NCBI GenBank assembly: GCA_014384565.1
Contig: JACNFO010000027.1
Coordinates: 31,924 to 79,577, forward strand
Source of the DNA: Candidatus Pseudothioglobus aerophilus
GTDB lineage: Bacteria > Pseudomonadota > Gammaproteobacteria > PS1 > Pseudothioglobaceae
Direction: 5' to 3'
Length of the DNA: 47,654 nucleotides
Shown: one piece after another, positions 1-8,284 of the stretch
Position numbering within the stretch: position 1 is the first letter of the stretch
Layout of the letters: the number at the start of each line of letters is the position of its first letter
The notes under the pieces: generated by a model
Told to the model about the DNA's origin: nothing
What the model saw: the letters and a program-made list of their open reading frames with translations, nothing else
Databases searched by the model: none
Made by a program: the position numbers and the translations under genes

Positions 1-1301
1 GCTAAGATTTTTTTCTTATTATTTTGAATAGATTTTGTAAGTTTTGGTGACACTGCAACCGGCTCTTGATTTGCATAGTCTTCATGGTTCTTAGCAACTG
101 ACTCTAGATCATATAGGTAATTAACCATCACCCCCCAAGAATCATCTAGAGCACTTTGATTAACATTTGCATCTGTATGAATTTTATAAAGAGATGCGCC
201 ATTACCAAGATGAAAATGAGCAACAGGATTAATAGCTTGACCATTTTTACGTTTAACTTGAGTTAAGTAATAATAGGTTAGTCGATTTAATACTAAAGGG
301 TTCGGCTTATTATCTTTACAGCACTCGCTGATATCATTAATTATATTTTCAGGCAAATCTTTATCTTCTAATAGGTTAATTTTATTAGACCATTTCTTCA
401 GCCCAGGAACAGGCGAGAGAGTAACAAAATGCTTGATTTGTTTGAATTCCTTCTCAATTTCAGTGACTACTTGCTTAATCAAAAAACTCCCGAAAGAAAC
501 GCTCTTTAGTCCCATCTGACAATTAGAGATAGAATAAAAAACTGCTGTTGTGGCGCTAAAAGGATCAATTGGTTTAACGCTTGTATCAAGAATTGGCATA
601 ATTGAATTTGGCGTATCGTCCATCAATGCAACCTCAATAAAAATAAGAGGCTCATCTGGAAGTGCTGGGTGAAAAAAAGCATACAACCTTCTGTCATCTG
701 CAGCCACCCTATTTTGCAAATCCTCCCAATCTGAAATATCATGGACAGCTTCGTACTGCATGATTTTTTCCAACACTCTAGCACTTGTCGACCAATCAAT
801 GCGCTCAAGTCTTAAAAACCCCCTATTAAACCAAGACTTAAATAAATGAACAAAATCAGAATCAAGTGATTTAAGCTCTGGAGAGACTTTAATGCACTCT
901 AACAATGACTCCCTCATCTTTAAAAGCACTGACGTTCCATTTGGGACTTGATTTAATCTTCTAAGAAGCTCATGACTCTTAGGTTCAATTAATTGATGAA
1001 GTTTCCTGAGCTGGCCTTCATCATCAATATTTAATTCAATGAGAGCCTTTTTGAGAATAGGCCGATCGACGCCAAACTGATCAAGAAACTGCAAAAAAAA
1101 TGACTTTTTTTGCTCTTCTGAAAGAGTATTAAAATCTTCCAAAATTATTTTTGCAAGAGAAAATAATGTTGCCTCTCCATTTTTACTTACTAACTGATTG
1201 CAAAGCGTGATAATACTTTCAGGACTGGATACTTTCTTATTTGAACGCCCCATACGGATACGCTGAATAAGAGAGTTTAGAAAGTTTTGATGCTGAGTCA
1301 T
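1..1301 (-). CDS. Malonyl-CoA decarboxylase, 3' end cut by window edge
   Basis: Reading the minus strand from ATG at 1301 gives 433 uninterrupted codons that run off the left edge, so the C-terminus is missing. The family converts malonyl-CoA to acetyl-CoA and CO2. Family landmarks are visible: an HPALPDEP segment near residue 211, an FYSISN segment near 257 that should carry the catalytic serine region of the GNAT-like domain, and NPVAHFHLGNGA around residue 360, whose histidine corresponds to the catalytic one in the family. The N-terminal 200 residues look helical, as expected. No strong ribosome binding site precedes 1301, and ATG at codon 17 is an alternative start. It lies 96 bp downstream of the 177-aa gene on the same strand, so it may be the last member of the cbb operon or have its own weak promoter. 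Family call is confident; physiological role is inference. Confidence 0.85.
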   Translation of the reverse strand, partial: MTQHQNFLNSLIQRIRMGRSNKKVSSPESIITLCNQLVSKNGEATLFSLAKIILEDFNTLSEEQKKSFFLQFLDQFGVDRPILKKALIELNIDDEGQLRKLHQLIEPKSHELLRRLNQVPNGTSVLLKMRESLLECIKVSPELKSLDSDFVHLFKSWFNRGFLRLERIDWSTSARVLEKIMQYEAVHDISDWEDLQNRVAADDRRLYAFFHPALPDEPLIFIEVALMDDTPNSIMPILDTSVKPIDPFSATTAVFYSISNCQMGLKSVSFGSFLIKQVVTEIEKEFKQIKHFVTLSPVPGLKKWSNKINLLEDKDLPENIINDISECCKDNKPNPLVLNRLTYYYLTQVKRKNGQAINPVAHFHLGNGASLYKIHTDANVNQSALDDSWGVMVNYLYDLESVAKNHEDYANQEPVAVSPKLTKSIQNNKKKIL

Positions 1302-1397: not shown

Positions 1398-1931
1398 CTA
1401 TTCAATTGAACTGAATCGAAAAACATTAACGGCGATATAGTCATTGTATGCAGCGCCTGATTGAAGCCACGTTTTTGCCTTTGAAGCTAAAACCTTAGGG
1501 CTTAAATTATCTTCAAGGCTTAAGTATAGGCCATATTTAAAAGTATAGTCTTCTTCACTTAAAACTAATAAATCACCATTTGAACTAATCAGGCTTTTCT
1601 CTGGCATGCCTCCTTGCTGAGAAACAAATACAGTCTGGCCGTACTCATCCATTAGGCTAGATAACTTAGCTTCGAAATACTCCTTACTAAGAGGACTATG
1701 TTTGTAATAATTCACATGAAGATCTTCAGCCTCTTCTGCCAAATAACTTCTTAAATCTTCAACTGAAGAAAACACCTCATCTTCAATCCAAAAAATAACA
1801 AATGCCCCATTTGAACTCCCCAAACCCAATGACTGGTCTTGAACCATCACCAAAGCAGAGCCATCTAGTATTGACTTCAAAAAATCTTTGTCTAAACTTG
1901 TGATCTCTTCATTGAACTGACTTAGATTCAT
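1398..1931 (-). CDS. Uncharacterised 177-aa protein, cbb-operon linked
   Basis: I do not recognise this protein. It is 177 residues, acidic, with no signal peptide, no membrane segment and no cysteine cluster; it looks like a soluble mixed alpha/beta protein. There is a short glycine/serine-rich segment (GLGSSNGAF, about 36-44) followed by hydrophobic strands, and a QQGG motif near 105. The start is supported by an AGGAT ribosome binding site about 9 bases before the ATG. It begins 12 bp after the 86-aa gene and ends 96 bp before malonyl-CoA decarboxylase, all on the minus strand. Its position downstream of cbbO suggests co-transcription with RuBisCO, but no function can be read from the sequence. 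Confidence 0.8.
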   Translation of the reverse strand: MNLSQFNEEITSLDKDFLKSILDGSALVMVQDQSLGLGSSNGAFVIFWIEDEVFSSVEDLRSYLAEEAEDLHVNYYKHSPLSKEYFEAKLSSLMDEYGQTVFVSQQGGMPEKSLISSNGDLLVLSEEDYTFKYGLYLSLEDNLSPKVLASKAKTWLQSGAAYNDYIAVNVFRFSSIE

Positions 1932-1943
1932 AATTTTTTCATC

Positions 1944-2204
1944 CTAGCGTGACTGGAAAAGGAGCGACTTTATAGTTTGATAATTTGTAGCAATATTTCT
2001 TAAAGCCTCTTCTCCTAGTTTATTACTAGTAATGCCCTCTTCAATCTCTTTTACTTTGTCAGCATACATTCTTTTGAGTGTATTTGTTGTCGCTAATATC
2101 TCATATACGCTTGGGGAATTTTTTTCTTTCCAGTCATCCGGCAAAATACAAGGATATTTTGGATCAAAATCAATTAAATTATTGTCTTCTTCAGCAACCA
2201 TCAT
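1944..2204 (-). CDS. Uncharacterised 86-aa protein coupled to cbbO
   Basis: A small soluble, charged protein that I do not recognise. Its ATG overlaps the cbbO stop codon in an ATGA arrangement (4 bases), which implies translational coupling and makes it a real gene. The N-terminus is acidic (AEEDNNLIDFD), followed by YPCILPDDWKE and then a helical, lysine/glutamate-rich C-terminal half (about 35-80) that could form a coiled helix pair. The nitrifier Nitrosomonas europaea has, as I recall, an additional small gene called cbbN after cbbO; whether this protein is related I cannot tell without alignment. Confidence 0.8.
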   Translation of the reverse strand: MMVAEEDNNLIDFDPKYPCILPDDWKEKNSPSVYEILATTNTLKRMYADKVKEIEEGITSNKLGEEALRNIATNYQTIKSLLFQSR

Positions 2205-4564
2205 TTAGTTAATGAAATAAATAATTGAGGGAGCCTTTCAGGTAATTTTTGAATATTATCAATTACCATAAAACGATTTTTACCAAAAATTCTCGAAACA
2301 TATTCATCAGCGTGGGGATCTAAACTAATACAGAACGTTACAATTCCATGACTTCGTAACTCTTCAACCGCTTTTTTTGCATCCATGCGAAGATGCTGTG
2401 GATCATCAACGTCAATATCTGCAGGCTCTCCATCCGTTAAGATCAAAAGAATTTTTTTAGCTGAAGATTGAGTCAACAAATCTCCACCAGCGTGCCTTAT
2501 TGCGGCGCCCATTCTGGTTGATAGGCCACCTTTTATTCCAGCCAATCGACCCTTTACTTCATCATTAAAACTATAATAAAATGGCTTGAAGCGATAGTAC
2601 TGAACATCGTGTCTTGAATCTGATGCAAATCCTGAAATGGTTAAATTATCTCCGATCTTGTCAATTGCCCATGAAAGTAAAGCAGTTGACTCTTTCATTA
2701 GCTCCAAAATTGTTTTGTCACTTCCAATAACCATATCATTGGTAGATTCAGATAAGTCCATTAATAAGTTCACAGAGACATCTCTAACATGTTGCACCTT
2801 CTTTACATAAATCCTGTCAGATGGGGTTATTTCAGATCTAATATCTGCTAAAGCTGTTACGCATGCATCAAGATCAAGCTCACTTCCTTCTTGTTGCTTC
2901 TTAAGTTTTACGAGGCCTTGAGGCTGCATTCGGTCAATCGCATTTTTAAGTTGATTAGCAATAGGTTTGTGAGTTTTTAAAATTTTATTAATTAACTCTG
3001 GATCCCCTTTTCTCAGACGTCTTTCATAAAGAGTTGCCCAGTTTGGCCGATAGAGCTGAAGCTGATAATCCCATTCATTGTAATGAAAAGGCTCACTTAC
3101 TGGCTCCTTACCCTCAACCTCATTAATGCTTACGCCATCGAGCTCATCAGGAAAGTATTCTGACTCTAAAGTCCAAATTTCCTGCGCATCATCACCTGCG
3201 GTTTCAACATCAAGCTCATTATACATCTCCATAATATTGACATTTTTACGTATCTGTCTTTGACTAACAGGGACATAATCATTGCCCTCTGACAACCAAT
3301 CAAGCTCTTCGTACTCCCAAATATATCTATTATCATCTCTATATATAATTGGCGTTGATACAAGAGCGGAAGCGCTTATTTTCACATCTGTTTCAGTCTT
3401 AAGTAGCTCGTAATACTTCATACCTACCTCATAGCTCATTGCTGATGATTCAGGCATTTTGGTCATTTTTTTAATAAATAACTTAAGAAAATCACTGTTA
3501 AATGACTGCTTTGCTGTGTATTTTTGATCTAGTGCGGCCCTTGAAAAATCAACCAGATCTACTATGAATGGATTTAAATCTTTTAAGTCCTCATCTTCAG
3601 GATGAAGCGCAATCCAAGTTTTCTTCATACCTGGAAATTTTTTTAATGTATTGAGCTCAACCCTTAAGTCTTCTATTAGAGAAATGCATGCAACTTGCAA
3701 AGGATTTAATTCATCCCCTTTAAAAGCCACTCTCGTTTCCATAATATGGGCTGCGGCATGAGCACAAACCGCCCTATAACAATCTATACCAGGAACAATT
3801 CTTCCAGAAGTATGCTTATAGTCATCATAAGCATCTGGAATATGCATAACTCCATATTCAATATAAGGTCTTAGACCTTTCTTAGTTTCGTAGTCCCCTG
3901 AAGTCGGTCGTAGAAAAAAATCACGGTTATAAAACGCTCTAAGATAAAACTGCAACTTTCTTTGATTATCAATAAATAGCGTTCCTCGCCTCTCCTGCTC
4001 AAGTATTTGCATTGATTCTGAACTACTTAATTCAAAATAGGCAATTTGGGCTTTAAAATCTCGTTTGAATGATTCAGCTCCATAAAGAACCCATCTTCTT
4101 AGGCCGCCAAGAGTAAGTTTACTAGTCAACTGATCAATATTATTTAGCATTGGCCTCATACCTCTAGGGGCTAGAGCTATCATTCGCTCCATTAACCTAA
4201 GGTAGCCTTTTAATAGATCAAAGTCACTCATCCGCCTTGCAACGTTTGGAAGGCTTGCAATCATCAGCACCAAGACAGAAGAGGATGTTTGTGAAGACAT
4301 TTTCATAATTGAAAATACAATCTCACCAATTATGGACTCACCAACCTCCCTAACGACCATAGGCGTCTCTTCCAAGAAAGAGATGACCATGTCTTCACCT
4401 TTACCCATTGCATGAAGCGCACCAGCACCATCTAAATAGACTTTAAGTCCATTTGGTGACATAACCTTAGAGGCTTCAACAAAACTCCCTGCAAGCGCAT
4501 CATGAAGAATGTCAGAGGAATCTCGAAACTTTTGTTCAAAATCGGAAAGTTGAACCGCACTCAT
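2201..4564 (-). CDS. cbbO: RuBisCO activase subunit CbbO (vWA domain)
   Basis: CbbO is the large adaptor subunit that, with the AAA+ protein CbbQ, removes inhibitory sugar phosphates from form I/II RuBisCO. The 787-residue length fits the family. The C-terminal von Willebrand factor A domain is clear: the MIDAS motif DLSES at about 603-607, the threonine region STRMG at about 682, and LTDGEPAD at about 708-715. The N-terminal 500 residues are the helical CbbO/NorD-type region. The start at 4564 follows cbbQ by 9 bp with AAGGA overlapping the cbbQ stop. The stop overlaps the next gene by 4 bases. It lies in the operon cbbL-cbbS-cbbQ-cbbO. NorD of denitrifiers is a homologue, but the RuBisCO context decides the name. 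Confidence 0.95.
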   Translation of the reverse strand: MSAVQLSDFEQKFRDSSDILHDALAGSFVEASKVMSPNGLKVYLDGAGALHAMGKGEDMVISFLEETPMVVREVGESIIGEIVFSIMKMSSQTSSSVLVLMIASLPNVARRMSDFDLLKGYLRLMERMIALAPRGMRPMLNNIDQLTSKLTLGGLRRWVLYGAESFKRDFKAQIAYFELSSSESMQILEQERRGTLFIDNQRKLQFYLRAFYNRDFFLRPTSGDYETKKGLRPYIEYGVMHIPDAYDDYKHTSGRIVPGIDCYRAVCAHAAAHIMETRVAFKGDELNPLQVACISLIEDLRVELNTLKKFPGMKKTWIALHPEDEDLKDLNPFIVDLVDFSRAALDQKYTAKQSFNSDFLKLFIKKMTKMPESSAMSYEVGMKYYELLKTETDVKISASALVSTPIIYRDDNRYIWEYEELDWLSEGNDYVPVSQRQIRKNVNIMEMYNELDVETAGDDAQEIWTLESEYFPDELDGVSINEVEGKEPVSEPFHYNEWDYQLQLYRPNWATLYERRLRKGDPELINKILKTHKPIANQLKNAIDRMQPQGLVKLKKQQEGSELDLDACVTALADIRSEITPSDRIYVKKVQHVRDVSVNLLMDLSESTNDMVIGSDKTILELMKESTALLSWAIDKIGDNLTISGFASDSRHDVQYYRFKPFYYSFNDEVKGRLAGIKGGLSTRMGAAIRHAGGDLLTQSSAKKILLILTDGEPADIDVDDPQHLRMDAKKAVEELRSHGIVTFCISLDPHADEYVSRIFGKNRFMVIDNIQKLPERLPQLFISLTK

Positions 4565-4573
4565 TACTAATCC

Positions 4574-5377
4574 TTAGTCAAAAAAAGTGTCGATTGCAGC
4601 ATTAAGAGTATCGACAATATCTAAGTCATCGGTAATAGGATTAACCATTGCAATTTTACAGGCAGACTTTTCATTAACCTTGTTAGCAATTAATTGTCCT
4701 GCATAGATACATAATCGAGTAGATATTCCCTCATCCAGCCCATGGCCAACAAGATTTCTAGCTCTTTGAGCGATTTGGACTAGTTTCAATGCTATTTTTG
4801 GATCAACGCTGGACTCTTTAGAAATAATATGTGCCTCAGTTTTTTCATCTGGATATTGAAAGTTAAAACCACAAAATCTTTGCTTAGTCGATTGCTTAAG
4901 GTCTTTCATTAAATTTTGATAGCCAGGGTTATAAGATATAACCAATTGGAAATCAGGGTGCGCTTCAATCAACTCGCCTTTCTTATCGAGCGGTAAAGTT
5001 CGGCGATAATCTGTCAAAGGGTGTATCACAACAGTTGTATCTTGCCTGGCCTCTACGACCTCATCTAGATAACAAATACCGCCATAACGAGCGGCCATTG
5101 CAAGAGGACCATCTTTCCAAATTGTACCTTCCTTATCAAGAAGAAATCTTCCTACTAAATCACTGGCTGACATATCTTCATTGCAAGCAACTGTAATTAA
5201 AGGCTTACCTAATTTATACGCCATATATTCTACAAACCTAGACTTACCGCACCCAGTAGGGCCTTTCAGCATAACCGGCATACGATTCATATACGCAGCG
5301 GTATACATATCTATTTCATCATTTTGAGGTTGGTAAAAAGGTTCTTTTGCAATTTTGTATTGATCTAATTCATTCAT
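4574..5377 (-). CDS. cbbQ: RuBisCO activase ATPase CbbQ (MoxR-type AAA+)
   Basis: CbbQ is the hexameric MoxR-family AAA+ motor of the CbbQO RuBisCO activase. The 267-aa product has Walker A GPTGCGKS at 39-46 and Walker B ICYLDE at 101-106, followed by the usual C-terminal lid helices. An open frame extends 49 codons further upstream to 5524, but the extension crosses the terminator hairpin and the end of cbbS and has no family similarity; ATG at 5377 is preceded by a good GAGGAT ribosome binding site, so this start is preferred. The NorQ proteins of nitric oxide reductase clusters are homologous, but linkage to cbbLS and cbbO supports CbbQ. Confidence 0.96.
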   Translation of the reverse strand: MNELDQYKIAKEPFYQPQNDEIDMYTAAYMNRMPVMLKGPTGCGKSRFVEYMAYKLGKPLITVACNEDMSASDLVGRFLLDKEGTIWKDGPLAMAARYGGICYLDEVVEARQDTTVVIHPLTDYRRTLPLDKKGELIEAHPDFQLVISYNPGYQNLMKDLKQSTKQRFCGFNFQYPDEKTEAHIISKESSVDPKIALKLVQIAQRARNLVGHGLDEGISTRLCIYAGQLIANKVNEKSACKIAMVNPITDDLDIVDTLNAAIDTFFD

Positions 5378-5392
5378 TTTTATATCCTCTTC

Positions 5393-5423
5393 AAAAAAAA
5401 CCCCTGCACTTAGACAGGGGTTT
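5393..5423 (-). terminator. Intrinsic terminator-like hairpin between cbbS and cbbQ
   Basis: A perfect 9-bp stem (5398-5406 paired with 5415-5423, AAACCCCTG against CAGGGGTTT) with an 8-base loop. Read on the minus strand it is followed directly by eight T residues (5400 to 5393). This is a textbook Rho-independent terminator inside an otherwise co-directional operon, 16 bp upstream of cbbQ. It probably acts as a partial terminator or mRNA 3'-stabiliser so that cbbLS transcripts exceed cbbQO transcripts. Confidence 0.85.
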
Positions 5424-5453: not shown

Positions 5454-5813
5454 TTATTTAAATCCTTTGCCTCTGTAAATAACCATGGATGCGCCCTGTG
5501 ATTGAGCATAATTATCATAACCAATTAGACGCACATGGTTGTCTGGATTAGCATCATGGCACTCCTTACATTCCGCAAGAATTGTATCAACATCTGTCTC
5601 ACCAAATAAAGGAAGTTTCCACATATACCAGTAATTTTCCATAGCATTTTCAACTTCAGTATGCTCTACACCAGGGTTGTAACCCTGATCAACAATGTAC
5701 TGTACTTGTTGTCGAATTTGTTTATCATTCATTGCAGGTAAGTATGAAAATGTTTCAAACTTTCTACTCGAGTTATCACCAAGGCGTGATGGGTAATCTT
5801 GAACTTTGCTCAT
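5454..5813 (-). CDS. cbbS: RuBisCO form I small subunit
   Basis: The 119-residue small subunit of hexadecameric form I RuBisCO. It shows the typical FETFSYLP near residue 19, the segment around GYNPGVEH, the conserved [11 protein letters not shown] at about 60-70 and the C-terminal [16 protein letters not shown]. It starts 49 bp after cbbL with AAGGA eight bases before the ATG and is followed by a strong hairpin terminator, then cbbQ. Sequence character fits the proteobacterial green-type form IA rather than red-type IC/ID. Confidence 0.97.
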
Positions 5814-5862: not shown

Positions 5863-7284
5863 TTACTTGTGCACTATGTCCAGCTTATCAACGGTATCGA
5901 ACTCAAATTTAATCTCTTTCCATGTCTCCATTGCAATCTTAAGCTCAGGTGAGTGTTTGGCTGCACTAGTAAGAATTTCTTTAGATTCCTTTTCTAAGTC
6001 TTTTCCAGCGTTCCTTGCTTCAACACATGCTTCAACAGCAACTCGATTTGCAGCAGCACCTGCCGCATTACCCCATGGGTGACCGAGTGTTCCGCCGCCA
6101 AATTGGAGGACTGAGTCGTCACCAAATATATTTACAAGTGCTGGCATATGCCAGACATGGATTCCGCCTGAAGCTACAGGTAGCATCCCTGGCATTGACC
6201 CAAAGTCCTGATCAAAGAAAATACCTCTTGAGCGATCTTCTTTAATAAAGCTATCGCGCATACAGTCAATCCAGCCCAAAGTAGATTCTCGGTCACCTTC
6301 AAGCTTCCCTACTACCGTTCCTGAGTGCATATGATCCCCTCCAGAAAGGCGTAAACACTTAGCAAGCACTCTGAAGTGAATACCGTGATTTGGATTTCTA
6401 TCTACAACAGCATGCATTGCTCTATGGATATGAAGCAATAAGCCGTTATCGCGGCACCAATTTGCAAGACCGGTATTTGCTGTAAAGCCTGCCGTAAAGA
6501 AGTCATGCATAATGATCGGAGTTCCTAGCTCTTTGGCATACTCAGCTCTTTTGTACATCTCTTCAGGCGTGGGGGCTGTTACATTTAAATAGTGGCCTTT
6601 CCTTTCACCTGTTTCTCTTTCAGCCCTTTCAATTGCATCCTGAACAAAACCGAAGCGGTCTCTCCAGCGCATGAAAGGCTGTGAATTTACATTCTCGTCA
6701 TCTTTTGTAAAGTCTAATCCACCACGCAGTCCCTCGTAACATGCGCGTCCATAATTTTTAGCTGATAAACCAAGCTTGGGTTTGATGGTACATCCCAACA
6801 TTGGTCGGCCATATTTATTCATTTTATCTCTTTCAACCTGGATTCCATTTGGGGGACCTCCACACGTCATAACGTAAGCTATCGGAAAACGAATATCTTC
6901 AAGTCTAAGAGCTCTTAATGCTTTAAAGCCGAATACATTTCCTACGAGAGAGGTAAGAACGTTAACGATTGAGCCCTCTTCAAATAAATCAATTGGATAT
7001 GCAATAAAAGCATAAATTGCATCATCTGATCCTGGCACGTCTTCAATGCGGTAGGCGCGTCCCTTGTAGTGGTCAAGATCTGTTAACAGATCAGTCCAAA
7101 CCGTAGTCCAAGTTCCTGTTGAAGATTCAGCTGCAACAGCGGCTGCAACCTCTTCTCTGGGAACGCCTGGTTGAGGCGTAATTTTAAAGCATGCTAGAAT
7201 ATCAGTATCTTTTGGCTCATACTCGGGCATCCAATATGTATCGCGGTATTCCTTTACACCTGCATCGTAACCTTTCTTAGCCAT
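5863..7284 (-). CDS. cbbL: RuBisCO form IA large subunit
   Basis: Catalyses carboxylation of ribulose 1,5-bisphosphate in the Calvin cycle. The 473-residue protein has the active-site lysines in TIKPKLG (K168 and K170), the carbamylated lysine in [11 protein letters not shown] (K194), HIHRAMH, and loop 6 [10 protein letters not shown]. The sequence is of the green-like form IA type. Because cbbQ and cbbO follow and no carboxysome gene is adjacent, it corresponds to the cytoplasmic IAq subtype. The start has a GGGAGT ribosome binding site. A consensus-like promoter and the divergent cbbR lie directly upstream, so regulation by CbbR is expected. Confidence 0.98.
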
Positions 7285-7324: not shown

Positions 7325-7353
7325 ATTATAGTAGGTGAAATAAATAATGTAAA
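7325..7353 (-). promoter_or_regulatory. Sigma70-type promoter of cbbL
   Basis: On the minus strand TTTACA (7348-7353) is separated by 17 bases from a perfect TATAAT (7325-7330), 40 bp upstream of the cbbL start. The match is 5/6 plus 6/6 with optimal spacing. The -35 element falls within the inverted repeat at 7338-7366. Confidence 0.75.
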
Positions 7354-7387: not shown

Positions 7388-8284
7388 ATGATTAATTATA
7401 CATTAAAACAGCTCTATAGCTATGAATCAGTCATTAGATTAGGCGGTTTTACAAGTGCGAGTAAAGAGCTCCATATCACTCAGCCTGCAGTATATATGCA
7501 GATACAGCAGCTTCAAGATAGTATTGGAGCAAAATTATTTGATATTAATGGAAAAAAAATCAGCGCTACATTTATTGGAAAAAAGCTTTATGAAACTGCA
7601 GTAAAAACGATCAGTACACTTGAAAATTCAAAACTTGAAATGGATGAAATACTCAGTCCAGATTCTGGCCATCTTCAAATAGCAGTTGCAACAACTGCAA
7701 ATTCATTTATTAGCGCATTACTTGCAAAGTTTAAAAAAGAGTTTCCTAAAATGACGTTCTACATCGATGTTACAAATAGGCAGTCGCTTCTTAACAACCT
7801 AAAAAATAATAACGCTGATCTGGTAATTATGGGAGAGCCTCCAAAAAATATTCCATTAATTTCTAAGGCATTTATGAAAAATCCTTTGATTGCAATCGCC
7901 CACCCTGAGAATGAGCTGTTAAATATGAAAAGAGTCACAATTAAAGATTTAGCCAAGGAAACTTTACTTACGAGGGAAGTTGGATCAGGCACTCGCATAA
8001 CAATTGAAAAGTTTACTGGTTTAAACTTTAATTCAGATATTCAAATTAACTCGAATGAAGCTATTGTTGAGGCGGTTCAAGCAGGATTAGGGATTGGTTT
8101 TGTTTCGATGCATTCTGTGAATCTTCAACTTAAAAACAATATTATTAGGCAGCTAAATGTTGACCCCTTTCCGATTGTAAGGCAGTGGCATATTGTTCAT
8201 CATGCAGACGCAGAGTTGTCCCCAATTGCAAGAAAGTTTAAACAGTTTGTAATTGAGAATACGAAGGCTGAAAAAAATCTATAA
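7388..8284 (+). CDS. cbbR: LysR-family regulator CbbR
   Basis: A 298-residue LysR-type transcriptional regulator: N-terminal winged helix-turn-helix (about 5-62, with GGFTSASKELHITQPAVYMQIQQLQ typical of the family) followed by a periplasmic-binding-protein-like effector domain. It is divergent from cbbL with a 103-bp shared gap, the classical position of CbbR, which activates the Calvin-cycle operon in response to metabolites. The ATG sits close to an AT-rich region with no clear ribosome binding site. It ends only 3 bp before the convergent argJ stop. The name rests on family plus position. Confidence 0.92.
   Translation: MINYTLKQLYSYESVIRLGGFTSASKELHITQPAVYMQIQQLQDSIGAKLFDINGKKISATFIGKKLYETAVKTISTLENSKLEMDEILSPDSGHLQIAVATTANSFISALLAKFKKEFPKMTFYIDVTNRQSLLNNLKNNNADLVIMGEPPKNIPLISKAFMKNPLIAIAHPENELLNMKRVTIKDLAKETLLTREVGSGTRITIEKFTGLNFNSDIQINSNEAIVEAVQAGLGIGFVSMHSVNLQLKNNIIRQLNVDPFPIVRQWHIVHHADAELSPIARKFKQFVIENTKAEKNL

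Follow-up and report, generated by a model that had tools for sequence, protein, structure and literature searches.

RbcX, Raf1 and BSD2 are RuBisCO chaperones, of which RbcX is small and helical. Their kind of action is the one proposed below for two small proteins, P86 and P177, although neither of these has a Pfam match or a significant PDB sequence or fold match to them. In alpha-carboxysome operons, the small gene acRAF lies, like the genes of P86 and P177, in a form I operon together with cbbQ and cbbO. Its product, a RuBisCO assembly factor, matches PF01329 (pterin dehydratase-like), which Pfam does not find in P86 or P177, and the two are unrelated to it by sequence. An acRAF-like gene is found in carboxysomal Thioglobaceae and is absent from 24/24 genomes that carry P86. 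The CbbQ/CbbO activase has its operon and its form IA-Q selective setting in common with P86 and P177, but it consists of an AAA+ ATPase and a VWA partner, and by Pfam neither domain is present in the two proteins. The gene that follows cbbO in Nitrosomonas is presumably cbbN.

Form IA-Q is the RuBisCO class whose genes adjoin cbbQ in the absence of carboxysome genes, and CbbQO recognises the motif KLDXXHK at the C-terminus of CbbL (PMC8718961). When the form I RuBisCO of A. ferrooxidans and its CbbQO were made in E. coli, they worked without P86- or P177-like proteins (PMC4660213). Thioglobus and Ca. Thiobarba have a hypothetical gene between rbcS and cbbQ (PMC6908604); it is also small and sits in the same operons, but differs from P86 in site and sequence. 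In the literature searched, no paper was found that describes the P86 or P177 genes.

The cbb operon of the window

The window is the whole stretch of 47,654 nucleotides that was analysed. On its minus strand the gene order is cbbL, cbbS, cbbQ, cbbO, P86, P177 and a malonyl-CoA decarboxylase-like gene (Table 1), which we take to belong to the malonyl-CoA decarboxylase family and which is next after P177 in most same-genus loci by synteny comparison. The C-terminus of CbbL reads KLDIVHK and fits the KLDXXHK motif, while CbbS weakly matches the small-subunit-like domain of CcmM. The true start of cbbQ (5377) is internal to a longer listed ORF; its Walker A motif is GPTGCGKS. A motif check found the MIDAS motif of CbbO intact (DLSES, TDGE).

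Both genes that a preliminary description of this DNA had placed after cbbO, of 86 and 177 aa, are present as minus-strand ORFs. The reported ATGA junction is seen in the sequence: the stop of cbbO (TGA, 2203-2201) and the start of P86 (ATG, 2204-2202) share four bases. This overlap is kept in nine loci of the window's genus, the window counted, and most other loci have a 1-base overlap or a gap of 2-16 bp. It was likewise confirmed that P177 starts 12 bp past the stop of P86 behind a good ribosome binding site, an AGGA with a spacing of ~10 nt. No clear ribosome binding site was found for P86 in the window sequence, which fits translational coupling to cbbO. The terminator-like hairpin after cbbS (10 pairs, then a T-run) was found by consensus scan only; if it acts as a terminator, cbbQ-cbbO-P86-P177 would depend on read-through. 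The distal genes would then probably be expressed at a lower level than RuBisCO itself, and the hairpin is likely an attenuator that parts RuBisCO expression from that of the activase.

Table 1. Positions of features in the window and in the compared loci (each locus in its own numbering).
Feature	Sequence	Position	Strand	Basis
Malonyl-CoA decarboxylase-like gene, runs off window start	window	1..1301	-	translation
P177	window	1398..1931	-	ORF, 177 aa
P86	window	1944..2204	-	ORF, 86 aa
cbbO, RuBisCO activase subunit, C-terminal VWA domain	window	2201..4564	-	Pfam VWA
cbbQ, MoxR-type AAA+ ATPase, 267 aa	window	4574..5377	-	Pfam AAA_5 + CbbQ_C
Terminator-like hairpin between cbbS and cbbQ	window	5398..5423	-	consensus scan only
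cbbS, form I RuBisCO small subunit	window	5454..5813	-	ORF + position
cbbL, form I RuBisCO large subunit	window	5863..7284	-	NCBIfam
Promoter-like site TTTACA-17-TATAAT upstream of cbbL	window	7325..7353	-	consensus scan, 11/12
cbbR, divergent LysR-type regulator	window	7388..8284	+	ORF + position
cbbQ + cbbO of G028	L127	8236-11409		
cbbQ + cbbO of G013	L128	7166-10341		
cbbL remnant joined to decayed P86, G033	L062	7234-7660		
Presumed CnoX/YbbN-like gene after P86	L052	8140-9015		
Presumed CnoX/YbbN-like gene after P86	L055	9677-10555		
Presumed CnoX/YbbN-like gene after P86	L058	4872-5750		
Presumed CnoX/YbbN-like gene after P86	L060	9601-10491		
Presumed CnoX/YbbN-like gene after P86	L061	9542-10420		
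Operon insert	L061	6632-9284		
Operon insert	L056	3825-6818		
Operon insert	L053	4217-6034		
Operon insert	L060	7253-9288		
104-aa gene between cbbS and cbbQ	L052	12555-12869		
Two P86-like genes, Thiomicrorhabdus sp. ZW0627	L126	5978-6259, 11528-11851		

Properties and distribution of P86 and P177

Pairwise dN/dS values of 0.04-0.20 for P86 and 0.09-0.16 for P177 indicate purifying selection on both genes. Since they are also conserved in many genomes, neither ORF is a chance one. The preliminary description had recognised neither gene, and searches of Pfam, NCBIfam and PDB sequences gave no match for either product. Foldseek against the PDB returned no match at E < 0.3 for P86 and none at E < 1 for P177, and a search of viral structures (BFVD), made with P177 only, returned nothing at E < 0.1. 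Weak matches to the TIGR02985 sigma factor family (best E 9e-4, far below the cut-off), to MCP signalling proteins and to Nup188 are regarded as chance, and the Foldseek match of P86 to ESCRT-I (E 0.3) as that of a generic helical hairpin.

The AlphaFold2 model of P86 (pLDDT 76.5) has a low-confidence N-terminus and a confident helical hairpin (residues 33-55 and 61-80). The N-terminus contains a conserved F-x-P-x-YP..LP-x-DW stretch, which the model suggests is probably flexible, and the alignment of the family has 22 invariant columns. P177 was modelled confidently by AlphaFold2 (pLDDT 91.7, pTM 0.84) as two parts, residues ~1-78 and ~80-177, the second of which stands alone in some bacterial homologues. 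In alignment A3, the P177 homologues without cbb linkage have NVCRYNC or something very similar as their last residues; the SUP05 P177s have lost both C-terminal cysteines (NVFRFSSIE), and the aligned Thiomicrorhabdus member keeps one (NVCRFSS).

The distribution of P86 was surveyed in 60 Thioglobaceae genomes, the window's own and 59 others. The gene was found in 24 genomes of seven genera, all with a form I cbbLSQO operon, and always 3' of cbbO, directly or close by, even where CbbO is only ~47% identical. Four genomes (G007, G010, G020, G034) were left out of the count, as their contigs end before cbbO. P86 is present in 24 of the 26 resolved non-carboxysomal form I (IA-Q) cbbLSQO operons and in 0/30 genomes without such an operon (Fisher p = 7e-14, which, the genomes being related, is not an independent-sample probability). 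These 30 comprise 19 with form II only, two carboxysomal ones, G033 with carboxysomal remains, two with a form I-type CbbL (~55% identity) and six without detected RuBisCO. The two exceptions, G002 and G006, keep the operon without P86. Form II and carboxysomal Thioglobaceae, including the 19 form II-only genomes, have their own CbbQ and CbbO and no P86; the presence of CbbQO therefore does not generally predict that of P86. Beyond Thioglobaceae, only Thiomicrorhabdus-type genomes gave confident P86-like genes (105-107 and 93 aa), which are not linked to cbb genes there. Two such genes, 5.5 kb apart and away from cbb, occur in Thiomicrorhabdus sp. ZW0627.

In 8/10 loci of other Thioglobaceae genera (L052 counted), P86 is followed by a thioredoxin+TPR gene (Pfam Thioredoxin, TPR_19, TPR_20) or by its TPR part, to which the gene is reduced in L053, L057 and L059. 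The full-length protein resembles, as we take it, the GroEL-cooperating chaperedoxin CnoX/YbbN. Some RuBisCO operons of these genera also contain same-strand insert genes in the cbbQ-cbbO or the cbbO-P86 interval. The inserts are defence-like in three of four loci and comprise an AbiP2-type reverse transcriptase (E 3e-168) with a PIN protein, a type II methyltransferase with a PLD nuclease, and a methyltransferase fragment with an HNH nuclease; the genes tested in L060 gave no assignment. A 104-aa gene between cbbS and cbbQ occurs in L052 and seven other loci (77-85% identical). It has no similarity to P86, is absent from the window operon and probably corresponds to the hypothetical gene described from Ca. 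Thiobarba (PMC6908604).

Within the window's genus, P177 stands behind P86, or directly behind cbbO, in 13 genomes; it is absent from three same-genus genomes and from all other Thioglobaceae genera. The nearest P177-bearing relatives of the window genome carry the SUP05 label, which places it in the SUP05 cluster of Gammaproteobacteria. In a scan of 84,980 species genomes, P177 follows cbbO in 12/12 Thiomicrorhabdus/Hydrogenovibrio/Thiomicrospira-type loci found, directly in ten and after one cation-efflux gene in two. In the tree, the cbb-linked P177s group into a single clade (SH-aLRT 100). Remoter homologues, from other Gammaproteobacteria, lie beside unrelated genes without cbb linkage, with the exception of a half-length P177 gene beside cbbR-cbbM-cbbQ-cbbO in Halothiobacillus. 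Nevertheless, each of the 19 genomes tested that have a P177 homologue of any kind also has RuBisCO. In a class sample this holds for 8/8 confident carriers, compared with a base rate of 175/369 (hypergeometric 0.002, with relatedness ignored). A match in G079 (E 0.007, within a 1002-aa frame, in a genome without RuBisCO) is considered to be chance.

Loss of RuBisCO and persistence of CbbQO

The genes cbbR, cbbL, cbbS, P86 and P177 are all lost, while cbbQ and cbbO are kept intact, in two genomes of the SUP05 clade: G013, and G028, which is 99% complete on one contig. Their order is argJ-cbbQ-cbbO-decarboxylase, compared with argJ-cbbR-cbbLS-cbbQO-(P86-P177)-decarboxylase at that site in relatives. 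Ten C-terminal codons of P177 in G028 and ten of CbbS in G013 are left as fossils, which indicates that these genes were formerly present in the two lineages. A whole-genome tblastn of G028 gave no hit for RuBisCO of form I or II, for P86 or for P177, and the PROSITE phosphoribulokinase signature was found in none of its ORFs by a search that had no positive control. In both genomes, the CbbQ and CbbO frames are open with intact Walker A and MIDAS motifs, and pN/pS is 0.03-0.07 for CbbQ and 0.11-0.13 for CbbO, the latter against 0.05-0.07 in RuBisCO-bearing pairs. CbbQO thus persists without RuBisCO in this clade, and it may have a second client. G028 and G013 stand apart in the CbbO tree; as the test does not reject their forming one clade (AU p = 0.10), there were one or two loss events.

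G033 retains the fossil of a deleted cbbLSQO operon, in which what is left of cbbL adjoins a decayed P86. The cbbR and CnoX-like genes beside it are still intact, and a carboxysomal CbbQO is still present. The pattern in these three genomes indicates that P86 and P177 go with RuBisCO, not with the activase. Their loss along with RuBisCO in these marine sulfur-oxidising bacteria suggests that they probably help it to fold, assemble or stay active, and makes them more likely factors of RuBisCO folding, assembly or quality control than subunits of CbbQO.

Candidate role of P86 and P177

We propose that the two proteins, translated from the 3' end of the cbbLSQO transcript, are accessory factors dedicated to the non-carboxysomal form I (IA-Q) RuBisCO. 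Their target would be RuBisCO itself, with folding, L8S8 assembly or quality control as the likeliest step, and they would not be obligate parts of CbbQO. P86 could be a small adaptor whose conserved N-terminal motif and helical hairpin hold RuBisCO subunits or intermediates and pass them on; the two-part P177 would have RuBisCO as its client too. The CnoX-like neighbour of P86 is a hint as to the folding mechanism. Such a client-side role is given an even chance of being correct, with the contact to RuBisCO and the folding or assembly step being what we infer. As would suit a RuBisCO-dedicated class, both linkage to the RuBisCO genes and loss along with them were found, and this assignment is weaker for the distant, unlinked P177 homologues. 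These homologues, the Thiomicrorhabdus P86-like genes away from cbb and the self-sufficient system of A. ferrooxidans (PMC4660213) speak against an accessory role. Neither protein is strictly required, given that G002 and G006 lack P86 and that P177 is missing in three genomes of the window's genus and in all the other genera; the two may not share one function. A bolder version is rather doubtful: that P86 and P177 are new biogenesis factors for the non-carboxysomal form I of marine chemoautotrophs only, that the fold of P177 lies outside the PDB, and that a RuBisCO-independent client explains the survival of CbbQO.

The RuBisCO-associated role put forward in the preliminary description gains support from distribution, linkage and gene loss, but its example, an accessory subunit of CbbQO, does not fare as well. 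That one or both proteins are subunits or regulators of CbbQO, for example by tuning CbbO-RuBisCO binding or the CbbQ ATPase, would agree with cbbO being the closest neighbour, overlapping P86 by four bases in the nine loci, with P177 standing behind cbbO in Thiomicrorhabdus too, and with the hairpin after cbbS, which would put P86 and P177 in the CbbQO expression tier. However, G028 and G013 keep a CbbQO that is intact and under selection without either gene, the form II and carboxysomal CbbQO of relatives occur without P86, and Q and O alone suffice in vitro in A. ferrooxidans (PMC4660213). This explanation is fairly unlikely, though a regulator needed only where CbbQO meets IA-Q RuBisCO could still fit. 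The same description had named homologues lying mostly away from cbb genes as evidence against a RuBisCO role. Within Thioglobaceae, P86 is not of this kind; the distant P177 homologues and the P86-like genes of Thiomicrorhabdus partly are.

Such P177 homologues, with unrelated neighbours in further bacteria that have RuBisCO, and the decarboxylase gene after P177 in most same-genus loci, could also mean that the two proteins serve another step co-regulated with CO2 fixation, such as carbon-flux or redox regulation or the malonyl-CoA decarboxylase step, and never touch RuBisCO. The link to the decarboxylase is weakened, as each gene is found without the other: the decarboxylase is kept without P177 in G028 and G013, and P177 occurs without it in G012. 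Moreover, form II autotroph relatives, which run the same cycle, are without P86, and we consider a role apart from RuBisCO improbable. It is very improbable that P86 and P177 are passengers, i.e. mobile- or addiction-type small genes that came into the operon by chance. Inserted defence-like genes do occur in other Thioglobaceae operons, but P86 is kept across the seven genera, in insert-bearing operons as well, and is under purifying selection; neither protein has a toxin, antitoxin or mobile-element match, neither gene was found in the viral contigs searched, and P86 was found in no plasmid.

The gene losses part CbbQO from RuBisCO, a pair that is usually thought inseparable. P86 and P177 could matter for making proteobacterial form IA RuBisCOs in other hosts. 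Bacteria of the SUP05 clade are major dark-ocean CO2 fixers whose RuBisCO accessory needs have so far been undescribed. With two conserved, still unnamed families whose occurrence follows that of the non-carboxysomal form I enzyme, the short list of RuBisCO accessory factors would grow.
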